Source: Halorussus halophilus
GTDB lineage: Archaea; Halobacteriota; Halobacteria; Halobacteriales; Haladaptataceae
Length of the DNA: 64,000 nt
Direction of reading: 5' to 3'
NCBI RefSeq assembly: GCF_008831545.1
Contig: NZ_CP044524.1
Coordinates: 434,001 to 498,000 of the forward strand
This document shows positions 3,040 through 50,774 of this stretch, piece by piece; position 1 is the first letter of the stretch; each line of letters starts with the position of its first letter. Below the pieces are notes generated by a model. That model saw only the letters and a program-made list of their open reading frames with translations, was not told where the DNA came from and made no database searches. The position numbers were made by a program, and so were the translations under genes.

Positions 3040-3825
3040 TTAGACGAGATGTCTGTACGCTCGGAGCGCGTTTTCGCCCGCTTCGGTCAACGAGAGGTAC
3101 TTCCGACGACCGACCTTCTCGGTATCGACGTACCCTTTCTCGGTCAGAGGTCCCACGACGTGACGGTCGAGCAGTCTGTAGAATCCTTTCTCCGTCCCCG
3201 CCGAAGACTCGACGACGAAGGGGAATTGCTCTTCGCGGGCGAACTCGATGAGTCCTTTCTTACTCACTCCTCGGTACCGGCCGCTCACACCGCTCGAACT
3301 GCTCGCATTCTGCGTACGGTCGGCGATGAACCGCAGGAAAGCGACGTGAGTCGAAGAGGGACTGTCGATAGGATAGTTGGGTAGTGAGAACGTCCGTTCG
3401 ACGGCTTCGTGAAGCGGTTCCGGCGGTACTCTGTCTGCTTCTGGTCCGTAATCCGGTTTGGCGTAGATGGGCGTTGCACCCGTCGCCATGCAGGCTATCG
3501 TCCCGGCGACTGCAGTTATCTTGCTCCCGCCGGAGATGTTGACGTACACGTCGTCGTTCGCGTGGTCGTGGATAGCTCTAGCGACGGTGCCGAGCGTATC
3601 GTAGAGGTCGAAGATGTCGCACTGTCGTCGTTCGAGTTCGATTCGTTCGTTGTCAGCGAGTTCGGCCAGCAGTGCTTCGAGGTAGTGGACTCCGGTCTCG
3701 CTCTCGCTATACTCGACGGCGACCACCTTGTCAGCTTTCCATTCGAGTATCGGTCGTTTCAGTCGAGCGTACTCGAAGCCCAACGGGACTACCTGGACGC
3801 GTTCGGGAACTGGTGACCCGTCCAT
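3040..3825 (-). CDS. CARF-like ligand-sensing wHTH regulator (HFX_2341/DUF6293 type)
   Basis: A 261-residue regulator with two parts. Residues 1-150 look like a Rossmann-type CARF-related sensor, with a VNISGGSKITAVAG segment near 95-108 and two strand/helix units. Residues 160-261 look like a winged helix, with SKKGLIEFA as a possible helix and FYRLLDRHVVGPLTEKGYV followed by a wing. The layout matches the haloarchaeal HFX_2341-family regulators and resembles Csa3. No cas gene or CRISPR array is nearby. It lies directly downstream of an EamA transporter on the same strand and has its own palindrome at 3853-3867, so autoregulation and control of the transporter are plausible. The ligand is unknown. 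Confidence 0.75.
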   Translation of the reverse strand: MDGSPVPERVQVVPLGFEYARLKRPILEWKADKVVAVEYSESETGVHYLEALLAELADNERIELERRQCDIFDLYDTLGTVARAIHDHANDDVYVNISGGSKITAVAGTIACMATGATPIYAKPDYGPEADRVPPEPLHEAVERTFSLPNYPIDSPSSTHVAFLRFIADRTQNASSSSGVSGRYRGVSKKGLIEFAREEQFPFVVESSAGTEKGFYRLLDRHVVGPLTEKGYVDTEKVGRRKYLSLTEAGENALRAYRHLV

Positions 3826-3852
3826 GCTGGAACGTCAGAGACGAACGAGAAA

Positions 3853-3867
3853 ATAGTTCGGAACTAT
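3853..3867. promoter_or_regulatory. 15-base palindrome in the promoter of the CARF-like regulator
   Basis: ATAGTTCGGAACTAT is a perfect palindrome with 7-base arms around a central G. It lies 28-42 bases upstream of the ATG at 3825 and covers the expected TATA position. One copy of the octamer TCGTTACT (3867-3874) touches its edge. It is a likely operator, most simply for the regulator itself. Confidence 0.5.
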
Positions 3868-3875
3868 CGTTACTA

Positions 3876-4793
3876 TCAGTTTCCATCTAACTGGACCACC
3901 AAGACACCGACACTGACTACAGCAATCCCGACCAATTCGTGTGGGTAGAGGGACTCGCCGAGGAAGAACCACCCGAGTAGCGCAACCTGCACCAGCATCG
4001 TGTTGCCGACGACGCTCGATTCGACCGCTGTGAGCGTTTGGAGCGACCGGTTCCAGAGGGTGAACGCGCCAGCGGTGTTGACCAGCGCAAGCCAGCAGAC
4101 GATTGCCCATTCGTCTAGTTCCAACGATGGAACTCCCTGCACGGAGAGACCAGTAACTAACAAGACCACCGCTCCGACTCCCATGCTAACCGTAGTCACC
4201 GCGAGCGGCGAGAGTTCCGACCCGTGGTTGATTCGCCGCCCAAGCACCGATCCCACGGCGTTGCTGAGTAGTCCGAGAGTCATCACTGTGAGTCCGAAAC
4301 TGTCGCCCACTGACCCAGTTTCCGGCCGGAAGTATGCGAATGCTCCAATCAGCAAGACGGTCACACCGACCCACTGACGAGTCGTCGGTGACTCGGCGAG
4401 CGCGACGAACCCACCGACGCCGACTACGACCGGTGTGAACGTCAACGCGAGGCTGACTGTCGCCGCTTGGAGGTGATTCAACGCGACGAACTGCGCTCCT
4501 TGGGTCACCGCGTAGAGGACTAGTCCCAGCGCAAGGAGTGTGACCAGTTGTCTGTGACTCGCCCTAGCTACCGACCGATGGTGGCCCCGGTGAACAAAAA
4601 TAGGAAACAACACCAGGGCGGCGAGTCCGTATCGCAACCCCGCGAAAGGCAACGCGGGAATGTCCGTGAGACCGATTTTGATGAAGACGTACGACGACGA
4701 CCAGAGTATCGTGACGAGCACCGCTTCGAAGACGGCACGAGTGTGGTCTGAGACGGTCGGAACTGCTTGCTCCAGTGACGTGGAATCGAACAC
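3876..4793 (-). CDS. EamA/DMT-superfamily transporter
   Basis: A 305-residue membrane protein with about ten helices arranged as two EamA repeats (about 20-150 and 165-300). The first repeat has ILWSSSYVFIKIG in its opening helix; the second ends with VGIAVVSVGVLVVQL. This length and two-fold repeat are typical of drug/metabolite transporters that export amino acids, nucleobases or related metabolites; the substrate cannot be read from sequence. The start is a GTG at 4793. It lies between the creatininase gene upstream and the CARF-like regulator 50 bases downstream. Three TCGTTACT copies lie in its upstream region. Confidence 0.85.
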   Translation of the reverse strand: MFDSTSLEQAVPTVSDHTRAVFEAVLVTILWSSSYVFIKIGLTDIPALPFAGLRYGLAALVLFPIFVHRGHHRSVARASHRQLVTLLALGLVLYAVTQGAQFVALNHLQAATVSLALTFTPVVVGVGGFVALAESPTTRQWVGVTVLLIGAFAYFRPETGSVGDSFGLTVMTLGLLSNAVGSVLGRRINHGSELSPLAVTTVSMGVGAVVLLVTGLSVQGVPSLELDEWAIVCWLALVNTAGAFTLWNRSLQTLTAVESSVVGNTMLVQVALLGWFFLGESLYPHELVGIAVVSVGVLVVQLDGN

Positions 4794-4830
4794 GCCTGCC
4801 GGTAGGGAATCGCCGACAGTGTAGTTGTTC

Positions 4831-4876
4831 TCGTTACTGTCGTTACTATTGGGACTACAGCACTGATCTCGTTACT
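4831..4876. repeat. three copies of TCGTTACT upstream of the EamA transporter
   Basis: The octamer occurs at 4831-4838, 4840-4847 and 4869-4876, just upstream of the transporter start at 4793; the last copy overlaps the end of the creatininase gene. A fourth copy is at 3867-3874, beside the regulator's palindrome. Their clustering around a regulator and transporter pair makes them candidate operator half-sites. Confidence 0.45.
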
Positions 4877-5675
4877 TCTCTGTTCTCCGACTCCCCGGTT
4901 GCGGGTCCACGTGCGGTTTCGCCATCAGATCGGAAAATCGCTTGTCGGCTATCCACTCCAGCAGTTGTACCAGTTGCTCGCAGGCTTTCTCGAAGAGCAG
5001 TGCCCCCTTCTCGGGGGTCGCATCGGTTTGGTCCCCGAGAACGCCGTTCTCGGTATTGTCGATGGCGTCGTAGAAGTTGCGCGCGCCGTGGACGTAGGCG
5101 TCGCCTTCCGAGAAGTCCACCAGACCGCCGTCGCGTGCTTCCTCTAACTTCTCCTCTCGAACTAGTTCCGGCGCGATGTGCATTATCATCGCCGTCTCCT
5201 TCGGGCCGCCGTGGGGACCGTTGTGTTCGAAGATGTCGCTCACGAGGTCCGGTATCGACTCGTCCCACATCCACTCGACGGCGTAGGCAACCTCGTCCTC
5301 ACGGAGTCGTCTGCCGACTTCGCGCAGGTGTTGCATGTTGCCGCCGTGAGCGTTGACGTAGACGATGCGGTCGATGCCGTGGTACGCAAGGTTGCGCGAA
5401 AAACTCTCGACGTAATCGCGGAACTGCGGCGGGTCCACCCACATCGTCCCGTGGAACTGTTTGTGGTGCGGGCTGACACCGACGTTGACTGTGGGCGTGC
5501 AGAGATACCCCGTTTGCTCTGCCGCTTCGCGGGTGAGCGACTCTGCGATACGGTGGTCCGTCGAGAGCGGGAGGTGCGGGCCGTGCTGTTCGGTGGACCC
5601 GAGTGGGACGACGGCGAGCGATTCTTCGGCGACGTAGTCACCCAACTCCGGCCACGTCCGGTCGGCGAGGTACAT
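4872..5675 (-). CDS. creatininase-family amidohydrolase (ArfB/MftE-like)
   Basis: A 267-residue protein matching the creatininase fold. Metal ligands are visible in GSTEQHGPHLPLSTD (E29, H34, D40), in NAHGGN near residue 110 and in an acidic helix, PKETAMIMH, near 155-165. Members include creatininase, the formamide hydrolase ArfB of archaeal riboflavin/F420 synthesis, and MftE. Haloarchaea make F420 and riboflavin by the archaeal route, so an ArfB-like role is reasonable but unproven. No riboflavin genes are adjacent. The stop overlaps the upstream repeat cluster of the transporter. Confidence 0.8.
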   Translation of the reverse strand: MYLADRTWPELGDYVAEESLAVVPLGSTEQHGPHLPLSTDHRIAESLTREAAEQTGYLCTPTVNVGVSPHHKQFHGTMWVDPPQFRDYVESFSRNLAYHGIDRIVYVNAHGGNMQHLREVGRRLREDEVAYAVEWMWDESIPDLVSDIFEHNGPHGGPKETAMIMHIAPELVREEKLEEARDGGLVDFSEGDAYVHGARNFYDAIDNTENGVLGDQTDATPEKGALLFEKACEQLVQLLEWIADKRFSDLMAKPHVDPQPGSRRTEK

Positions 5676-5749
5676 GTCGGCAGTTCGTGACGGTGCGGCA
5701 TAGCTTTTGGCGCGGGGCGACGTGTCGGACAGTGACGTGTGGTGAACTA

Positions 5750-5799
5750 CCCTACCCTACTCGCTCACGGCTGACGCAGTTCGCTCCTCGAGGGTAGGG
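5750..5799 (-). ncRNA. candidate 3' stem of the TnpB omega-RNA / right-end hairpin
   Basis: CCCTACCCT at 5750-5758 pairs perfectly with AGGGTAGGG at 5791-5799, giving a 9-bp stem with a 32-base loop. The stem spans the TnpB stop codon (TAG at 5759-5757 on the minus strand). TnpB guide RNAs of the IS605 group overlap the 3' end of the gene, and haloarchaeal relatives produce sense-overlapping RNAs there. This stem is therefore the likely scaffold end, with the guide starting soon after 5750 toward lower coordinates. The exact RNA ends are unknown. Confidence 0.5.
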
Positions 5800-7001
5800 C
5801 TTCCTGTTTCCACGACGCGCTTTGCAGATACCGAGGTATCCACAGGGAGCGCAGTCTTCACAGGCGTTCGTTCGGAGTGTCCCACTCCTACATCTTCGAG
5901 GCCACGAGAAAGAATGTTCCACGCCGCGTTCGCGTCCCTATCCGACTCAAATCCGCAGGCAGGACAGGAATGTTCACGGACCCACAGCGGTTTGTCCGTC
6001 GAAACGCCGCAGGACGCGCACTCCTTGGTCGTTCCTCTCGGGTTGACCGCCACGAAGTGCGTCCCTGCTCGCTTGCACTTGTATTCGAGCAACGAGAGGA
6101 ACGTCCGCCACGCGGCAGACGCAGTGTTGCGGCTGTTCGACGGCGACTCCATCATCCCGGCGACGTTCAGGTCTTCGACTGCCACGAGGTCGTACTCCCG
6201 AGCGTAGTAGTTCGACAACTTGTGCAAGAAGTCGCGGCGCTTTCGTCGGAGGTCGGCGTGACACTCCGCAACGCGCCGTCGTTGCATCTCGTAGTTATTC
6301 GACCCGTGTTGTTTCCGCGAGAGTTTTCGTTGTTCTCGCTCCAAGCGGTCGCGTTCGTCCGAGACGTCGAGCGACCCGACAGCCGTGCCGTCGGTGTCGT
6401 GGGCGTACGTGAGAATCCCAACGTCGATACCGACGCACCGTTCGGGATTCTCAGGTGGCTCAGGAGGCTCGCGGTCCAGTTCGACGCCGAACGTAGCGAA
6501 CCACTCGTCCGTCGGTTCCTTCTTGAGTGTGACCTGTTTGAGTTTCGCGTCGTCGGGGATGGCGCGGTGAAGCCGAATCGGGATGTCCGCGAGTTTCGAG
6601 AGTGACAGCACAGTCTGACCGCCTTTCTTGTCGAGCTTGAAGCCAGACTGACTGTACGTGAAACTGCGGAACTCCCGTGGTGGCTTCCACGTGAGTTGGC
6701 CGACGCCGTAGCCGTTCTCCTTGAGTCCTCCGAGTGATTTGACGTTCTGCTCAAGTCGCATGACCGCTGTTTGCAGAACTGTCGAGTACACGTCCGAGAG
6801 GCCATTCCACCAGTCTTTCAGGGACGGAATTTCGTCTCGGATGGACCGAACACGCTGATTGAGCGTGCCTGCGTCCTCGGGAAGTTGGTCAAAACGGTAG
6901 AGGGCGTGATTGTATAGTTGCCTACAAATGTCTCGGTGGCGGTCCAACTCCTCTCGGTGGGCGTCGGACGGCTTGAGACGGTACTTGTAGGCGTAATACA
7001 T
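5757..7001 (-). CDS. tnpB: TnpB RNA-guided nuclease (IS200/IS605, IS1341-type)
   Basis: A 414-residue TnpB, close to the usual 370-420. RuvC motifs are intact: D193 in GIDVGILTYA, E276 in VAVEDLNV and DRDANAA at 354-360. A zinc ribbon has C328, C331, C346 and C349. The protein would use an omega-RNA from its own 3' end to cut DNA at the site left after transposition. The ATG at 7001 was chosen because the reading frame upstream only overlaps the small RHH gene. No TnpA is present, so the element could move only with help in trans. The intact catalytic residues suggest it is not decayed. Confidence 0.92.
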   Translation of the reverse strand: MYYAYKYRLKPSDAHREELDRHRDICRQLYNHALYRFDQLPEDAGTLNQRVRSIRDEIPSLKDWWNGLSDVYSTVLQTAVMRLEQNVKSLGGLKENGYGVGQLTWKPPREFRSFTYSQSGFKLDKKGGQTVLSLSKLADIPIRLHRAIPDDAKLKQVTLKKEPTDEWFATFGVELDREPPEPPENPERCVGIDVGILTYAHDTDGTAVGSLDVSDERDRLEREQRKLSRKQHGSNNYEMQRRRVAECHADLRRKRRDFLHKLSNYYAREYDLVAVEDLNVAGMMESPSNSRNTASAAWRTFLSLLEYKCKRAGTHFVAVNPRGTTKECASCGVSTDKPLWVREHSCPACGFESDRDANAAWNILSRGLEDVGVGHSERTPVKTALPVDTSVSAKRVVETGSPTLEERTASAVSE

Positions 7002-7005
7002 GATG

Positions 7006-7125
7006 CTACTCGTGTTCCTTGATGTACTCGTCAAGTCGCTCGCGGATGAACGACGAGAGATTCAGGTGGTGTTCCTGAACCCACTCGTGTTGGTCCTCTC
7101 GGAGTGTGATTGTGGTCCGCTTCAT
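7006..7125 (-). CDS. 39-residue ribbon-helix-helix protein upstream of TnpB
   Basis: A very short gene from ATG at 7125 to TAG at 7008-7006, four bases before the TnpB start. The sequence reads as a minimal RHH fold: a TTITL strand, helix REDQHEWVQEHH, turn LNLS, and helix SFIRERLDEYIKE. RHH proteins of the CopG/Arc type bind DNA as dimers and often repress their own operon. The order RHH then tnpB suggests it limits TnpB expression. A 22-base inverted repeat lies five bases upstream. Its small size and basic start favour a real DNA-binding peptide over chance. Confidence 0.7.
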   Translation of the reverse strand: MKRTTITLREDQHEWVQEHHLNLSSFIRERLDEYIKEHE

Positions 7126-49829: not shown

Positions 49830-50774
49830 ATGCGTCGTCTCGGAGTGCGAGTGCTGATGGCGGCCGTCGGTCTTGCGACGTTTGTCCTGTACGCGGGCGT
49901 GGCCAGTTTCTTCGCGTGGGGGCTGGTCGGTCTCTGGCAGGCCCGTGGCGACTTATTGACCCTCCTCGTGGTCAGTTCGGTGCTGACGCTGGCGTTCAGT
50001 TACGCGAGCTATCGAGTCGGCACGAGTCGCTTGGTCTCTCGTCTCGACGCGAGAGCAGTGCCGCGCCAGAGCGCGCCCGAGCTACATCGGCGACTCGACA
50101 ACCTTTGCACCGAAATGGGGGTCGAGCGACCGCCGCTACTGGTCGCGCGAATGCCCGTCCCGAACGCGATGGCTGTCGGCGGCGTCGGAACCGGCTCGAT
50201 ACTGCTCGACCGGCGACTGTTTCGCCTGCTCGGAACGGACGAACTGGAGACGATACTCGCCCACGAACTGTCTCACCTCGAAAGTAACGACAGCCTCGTC
50301 CAGACGCTGGCGTACAGTCTCGGCCAGTCGCTCGTCTGGGTGGTCGTTGTGGTGACGCTCCCACTCGTCGTGGTCGTCGTCGGAGCGACGCGGACGCAGG
50401 CGTGGCTCCGCGGGGATTCGAGCGCGTGGACGACCACGGCGTTCGGCGAGTTTCGTCGCCGGACCAGTCAAGTCGCGCTGGCCGTCCTGAGTCTGCTGAC
50501 CCTCTTGGTCCTCGCACACTCCCGAAAGCGCGAGTTCGCGGCCGACGACCGGGCCGCGACGGTGACTCGAAAACCCCGAGCGCTCGCCTCCGCACTGCGG
50601 AAGATAGAACGCGCCAGCGAACCGCGGTTGGGGTTGCTCACGCCGCTGTACGTCCGGGGCGACGAAGACGGATGGCTCACCGAGATACTCTCGACGCATC
50701 CGGCGACAGACGAGCGCGTTCGCCGGTTGGTCGAACGCGCCGAGGCGAACGCAACGACAATCGAGGTTCGGTAA
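49830..50774 (+). CDS. M48-family membrane metalloprotease (HtpX-like)
   Basis: A 314-residue zinc protease in the membrane. Two N-terminal helices (about 8-60) precede the HELSH motif at 145-149, followed by two more helices (about 160-185 and 210-225) and REFAADDRA, which gives the third zinc ligand. The domain topology is that of HtpX, which degrades damaged membrane proteins. A start at 49830 (MRRLGVRVLM) agrees with the usual family length. It is a single gene downstream of the KTSC protein's promoter region. Confidence 0.88.
   Translation: MRRLGVRVLMAAVGLATFVLYAGVASFFAWGLVGLWQARGDLLTLLVVSSVLTLAFSYASYRVGTSRLVSRLDARAVPRQSAPELHRRLDNLCTEMGVERPPLLVARMPVPNAMAVGGVGTGSILLDRRLFRLLGTDELETILAHELSHLESNDSLVQTLAYSLGQSLVWVVVVVTLPLVVVVVGATRTQAWLRGDSSAWTTTAFGEFRRRTSQVALAVLSLLTLLVLAHSRKREFAADDRAATVTRKPRALASALRKIERASEPRLGLLTPLYVRGDEDGWLTEILSTHPATDERVRRLVERAEANATTIEVR

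Follow-up and report, generated by a model that had tools for sequence, protein, structure and literature searches.

The locus analyzed here raises the question of what a regulator with a CARF-type sensor does beside a transporter gene, and whether an octamer repeated around the latter is the DNA site through which it acts. In the window, i.e., the whole 64,000-nucleotide stretch of DNA under study, the genes concerned are encoded on the minus strand and read in the order creatininase, eamA and regulator. The locus lies on a 0.53-Mb contig of a genome of 4.45 Mb in four contigs.

3040..3825, minus strand: regulator of 261 aa with N-terminal CARF domain (HFX_2341_N) and C-terminal winged helix (DUF6293_C), from Pfam, orthologues and fold
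3876..4793, minus strand: EamA-family gene (drug/metabolite transporter superfamily), GTG start, 305 aa, immediately upstream of the regulator, from Pfam and locus comparison
4872-5675, minus strand: creatininase-family gene, first in reading order and followed by eamA

Regulator and Transporter Proteins

The CARF-type sensor and winged helix that a preliminary description had recognized at 3040-3825 (minus strand) are borne out by matches to HFX_2341_N, DUF6293_C and, more weakly, Csa3_N, both above the gathering score, with PF19810 at 122.7 bits against a cut-off of 30 and PF22665 at 102.1 bits against 27. The HFX_2341 equivalog model NF051475 reaches only 23.2 bits at a cut-off of 500, and the Csa3 model TIGR01884 (cut-off 60.2) likewise stays below its cut-off with the window protein (42.1) and two orthologues (23.4 and 21.7). 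An AlphaFold model computed from the window protein and three orthologues is of moderate quality (pLDDT 73). Its best Foldseek match is Csa3 (E 1.4e-7), while the VIA-align list is filled by CARF proteins, mostly cyclic oligoadenylate receptors, with Cam1 aligning over 112 residues at a Z of 15.2 and an rmsd of 2.0. Searching PDB sequences with a profile gave no convincing match. As modeled, the regulator has the Rossmann-like CARF fold and is closest to Csa3.

Comparison with the CARF motifs compiled in PMC8844856, including (D/N)-x-(S/T)-x3-(R/K), identifies the signature N96-x-S98-x3-K102, of which all three residues are invariant in 14 sequences, and the first-loop motif L15-G16-F17 with invariant G16 and F17. 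Since these residues are kept, the ligand pocket looks functional. In the model, the helix 212-229 ahead of a two-stranded wing is likely the recognition helix; K213, Y216, R217 and L219 are invariant within the clade of EamA-linked regulators. Where the regulator has Y216, R217 and D220, the other DUF6293-type protein of the genome bears F, A and N (alignments compared by eye), substitutions which fit a different DNA site. Locus L058 (G000:C1) encodes at 5560-6303 a second CARF regulator of the DUF6293 type, with about 40% identity. Relatives of it occur in most genomes of Halorussus and Haladaptatus, with neither the GTAACG repeat nor the eamA of the pair beside any of them.

The transporter matches the EamA domain in two stretches with 131.2 bits, exceeding the gathering score, while the best equivalog models (2A78 and YedA) score under their own cut-offs.

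A Conserved Gene Pair

A protein search in 392 genomes of the order revealed 13 close orthologues of the regulator besides that of the window, distributed over six haloarchaeal families. All members of the resulting set of 14 were found at E 6e-100 or better, whereas the best protein outside the group reached 2e-55 in an earlier search for relatives. Profile searching for the EamA protein at E 1e-90 retrieved the identical 14 of the 392 genomes, and in all 14 orthologous loci eamA is located directly upstream of the regulator gene on the same strand. Sequence identity to the window proteins goes down to 58% for the regulators and 53% for the EamA proteins. When compared with 27 other DUF6293-type regulators, the EamA-linked ones form a single clade with a support of 100/100, while neither an EamA neighbor nor an upstream repeat was found at any of these 27. 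On sequence grounds, the gene pair is conserved and the co-occurrence of its members exclusive. In a search for related loci, the single regulator protein as query gave no matches and an alignment query four organisms.

Two additional copies are decaying. On a plasmid of Haladaptatus salinisoli (G022, L045/L092), the regulator is broken over several frames and has no eamA beside it, while a merged eamA-regulator remnant with an internal deletion in an incomplete genome (G012, L046) still has the operator intact.

Apart from the pair, no other neighbor recurring across families was found at the 14 loci, and hence no clue to the substrate. The creatininase gene was considered as a member of the unit and dismissed, as it does not adjoin eamA in either G013 or G017, and other families possess the pair without this gene. 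In three other genomes of the Halorussus group (L043, L044 and L046), the creatininase gene adjoins a 127-aa ORF, corresponding to 2575-2958 in the window, with the eamA-regulator pair lying beyond both. In the window, the pair stands between this ORF and the creatininase gene (4872-5675), so that either the cassette or its neighbors underwent rearrangement. Ahead of the creatininase gene and close to it, 5757-7034 (minus strand) encodes a TnpB-like protein of the IS605 OrfB family, scoring 85.8 bits for OrfB_IS605 and 80.9 bits for the Cas12f1-like TNB domain.

The Octamer and Its Tandem Form

The octamer is TCGTTACT, or AGTAACGA as read on the gene-bearing minus strand. Its four copies are present exactly where they had been described, at 3867-3874, 4831-4838, 4840-4847 and 4869-4876, and a fifth is found on the other strand within a long ORF (50283-50290). 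The earlier estimate was about two chance copies per window; shuffled sequences give an expectation of 1.67, and five are reached in 2 of 100 shuffles. By pattern searches, which were used for all genome site counts, 104 copies were obtained from the whole 4.45-Mb genome. With an octamer this moderately common, single copies mean little. Four copies in about 1 kb, however, are unusual: when 104 copies are placed at random over the genome, a fraction of only 0.00015 of the placements contains a cluster of this kind at any position.

The proposed operator upstream of eamA comprises the two middle copies, as follows.

4831..4847, minus strand: predicted eamA operator, direct repeat AGTAACGAC-AGTAACGA with 9-bp period, 53 bp from the first GTAACG to the start codon
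4819..4824, minus strand: inverted half-site CTACAC in degenerate form, 7 bases beyond the repeat, from site alignment, weak in Halorussus
4869..4876, minus strand: fourth octamer copy, overlapping the creatininase stop codon, from locus comparison

A direct repeat of the form AGTAACGAy-AGTAACG with a period of 9 bp precedes eamA in all 14 genomes, its first GTAACG lying 51-54 bp ahead of the start codon in 12 of them. The density of GTAACG amounts to 11.4 per kb upstream of eamA and 10.6 per kb in the spacers before the regulator gene, compared to 0.30 elsewhere in the loci. At least 11 of 12 positions of the tandem are matched in 14/14 eamA promoters, in none of 6,484 control windows and in 11 of 7,000 shuffles. 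In the window's genome, the eamA promoter is the sole tandem site within one mismatch, and 19 of the 37 sites of this quality across the 14 carrier genomes are located at the eamA-regulator operon. Doubts raised in advance were that the octamer might be common in the genome or lacking at orthologous loci. The octamer itself is moderately common, but every orthologous locus carries its tandem form, which is close to unique in the genome. From these sequence comparisons, a conserved operator-like element emerges that has the octamer as its core, and the CARF-type regulator, the EamA transporter and the octamer indeed form one conserved unit, as first proposed.

The third upstream copy (4869-4876), which had been counted as part of this unit, is not matched by a copy at the corresponding place in relatives and is probably incidental. 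Together with the 104 genome copies and an unconserved palindrome (see below), it could be taken to mean that the octamers are functionless chance repeats. Conservation of the tandem in 14/14 loci with fixed spacing and near-fixed position, at zero hits in control windows, leaves this reading with virtually no credibility, and for the tandem element a chance origin is refuted by repeat density, promoters and control windows alike.

Six relatives additionally have an inverted half-site yGTTAC seven bases after the repeat. As these seven bases are often TATA-like, the half-sites in the six relatives would flank the core promoter. In Halorussus, the downstream inverted half-site is degenerate.

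A wider regulon was considered and rejected. Allowing up to two mismatches gave 24 matches genome-wide, but 9 were also obtained with the reversed control, and many of the matches resemble a 9-bp-periodic sequence of the GGTGACGACGG type. Remote from the operon, an array of exact 9-bp GTAACGGCG repeats was observed (L086-L088, G320:C2:75021-75072).

The Spacer Before the Regulator Gene

The remaining octamer copy belongs to the short spacer between eamA and the regulator gene, where three features overlap or adjoin each other.

3857..3874, minus strand: operator-like element with intact AGTAACGA (3867-3874) and degenerate unit AGTTCCGAA (3857-3865)
3849..3856, minus strand: TATA-like element CTATTTTC, 24-31 bp ahead of the regulator start codon, from its location and its resemblance to CTATTTTTAC of relatives
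3853..3867, no strand: 15-base palindrome overlapping degenerate repeat and TATA-like element, from site alignment

The degenerate AGTTCCGAA is in the same 9-bp register as the intact unit at 3867-3874. At least one GTAACG is present in this spacer at 11 of the 14 loci, and the full tandem in G204, G320 and G296. The repeat is missing here in G111, G224 and G088, so that direct autoregulation via a second promoter is not universal. The assignment of CTATTTTC as a TATA-like element is a prediction based on its position and its likeness to CTATTTTTAC.

The palindrome ATAGTTC-G-GAACTAT is exactly as had been noted at 3853-3867. A role as an operator, on the other hand, is not supported, as relatives lack it and the window holds six perfect palindromes of the 7+1+7 form, making a single one unremarkable. 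Probably, it is an incidental by-product arising at the junction where degenerate AGTTCCGAA runs into CTATTTTC.

Probable Independence From CRISPR

The absence of CRISPR genes pointed out at the outset extends well beyond the window with respect to type III systems, as a Cas10 palm match was obtained in none of 16 genomes. Cas1 is encoded in one of the 14 carriers, the window's own genome, where it is located on another contig, compared to 72 of 194 genomes of the order. This difference (Fisher p 0.019, with relatedness ignored) is suggestive of a possible negative association. Moreover, no cas gene is among the recurrent neighbors of the 14 loci. Considering the distribution of Cas10 and Cas1, a Cas10 product is unlikely to be the signal. 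These results bear on the possibility of a CRISPR-linked Csa3-type regulator answering cyclic oligoadenylate, with EamA as a defense accessory. Such a role would suit the CARF fold nearest to Csa3 and the conserved phosphate-binding signature. With Cas10 in 0/16 genomes, Cas1 missing in 13/14 carriers, no recurrent cas neighbor and a Csa3 model score of 42.1 falling short of 60.2, it is nevertheless highly improbable.

Proposed Mechanism

Most likely, the locus represents a CRISPR-independent, autoregulated and ligand-controlled exporter operon. In the mechanism we propose, a regulator dimer would bind the direct repeats through its winged helix and, once bound, cover the BRE/TATA region, repressing eamA and itself. 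A small ligand, nucleotide-like, probably phosphate-bearing and not made by Cas10, would fill the CARF pocket and change the grip on DNA, allowing expression of the exporter, which might then clear the ligand or a metabolite related to it. The regulon would consist of little more than the eamA-regulator operon. Taken as a whole, a two-gene operon under a repressor with ligand switch is reasonably probable. Among the individual steps, binding of the regulator to the repeats is very likely and autoregulation is quite probable. Repression rather than activation is still probable, whereas we lean only somewhat toward the CARF pocket being the switch for a small ligand linked to the EamA substrate. 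The more specific idea of a clearance or signaling circuit, in which an endogenous nucleotide-like, non-Cas10 signal is sensed and EamA exports it or its breakdown product, is tentative and on balance doubtful.

Haloarchaea are rich in winged-helix regulators, and binding of the CARF regulator to the repeats is a prediction. Hence, another genome-encoded regulator might occupy them while the CARF protein acts elsewhere. This is improbable, however, as the tandem element is essentially confined to the eamA-regulator pair, the 27 other DUF6293-type regulators lack the repeat and the CARF gene always comes with eamA and the repeat, with the exception of one broken copy.

The repressor model has support for some of its parts from characterized proteins, as binding of MM_0565 to its own promoter is reported to span BRE and TATA (PMC7465815) and HFX_2341 acts as a repressor that lowers the mRNAs of cas genes, its signal being left open (PMC11434293). 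Counting against it, besides the degenerate downstream half-site in Halorussus, the repeat missing ahead of three regulator genes and the moderate quality of the structural model, the repeat is partly upstream of the BRE position, which would suit an activator too. In the latter case, the ligand-bound regulator would recruit TFB/TBP from the direct repeat just upstream of BRE. Location of the repeat 5' of the TATA-like stretch and abutting the BRE position is compatible with this, and TFB recruitment has been hypothesized for Csa3a in work cited in PMC8844856. By contrast, the inverted half-sites beyond the TATA-like stretch in six relatives suggest occlusion, and for HFX_2341, which falls into the same Pfam families, the effect on cas genes is repression (PMC11434293). 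Activation is consequently rather unlikely, and repression is retained as the preferred mode.

Comparison With Known Systems

A ligand-sensing regulator adjoining the exporter gene it controls is a general pattern, known for example from LysR-type regulators. Compared to LysR-type pairs, the sensor is a CARF domain, the target an archaeal core promoter and the regulator the downstream gene of the operon. Among CARF proteins, HFX_2341 of Haloferax mediterranei (PMC11434293) resembles the regulator in being haloarchaeal, combining HFX_2341_N with DUF6293_C, having no genomic link to CRISPR and responding to a signal that is still open. HFX_2341 is a global regulator with an influence on cas genes, broadly conserved and inherited vertically. 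By contrast, the EamA-linked regulator is patchy in distribution, tied to one exporter and equipped with a predicted dedicated operator. Csa3 of Saccharolobus/Sulfolobus (2WTE, PMC8844856) shares CARF and winged helix, the (D/N)-x-(S/T)-x3-(R/K) signature and G-F of motif 1. In contrast to Csa3, the EamA-linked regulator is encoded outside cas loci in genomes without Cas10 and mostly without Cas1, has a different, predicted direct-repeat operator and shows Glu for Asn/Asp in motif 1 and S-K for hydrophobic-R in motif 2. MM_0565 of Methanosarcina mazei (PMC7465815) shares the CARF-wHTH architecture and binds its own promoter across BRE/TATA, but is linked to a type I-B locus, with neither a distinct binding motif reported nor a transporter as target. 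In the open-licence literature, we found no report of a CARF regulator tied to an EamA-type transporter and no binding motif for HFX_2341 or MM_0565. While the parts are of known kinds, the combination of CARF regulator, exporter and predicted operator appears to be new.

Haloarchaea commonly encode CARF regulators outside CRISPR, and the sole DUF6293 paper found does not settle the signal sensed (PMC11434293). The clade described here offers a predicted operator along with just one dedicated target, a transporter gene, and the substrate of this transporter should point to the CARF ligand. With a sensor paired with an exporter and a DNA element in genomes almost all devoid of CRISPR genes, the locus provides a way to learn about non-CRISPR ligands, and the question of CARF sensing without CRISPR can be reduced to one promoter and one exporter.
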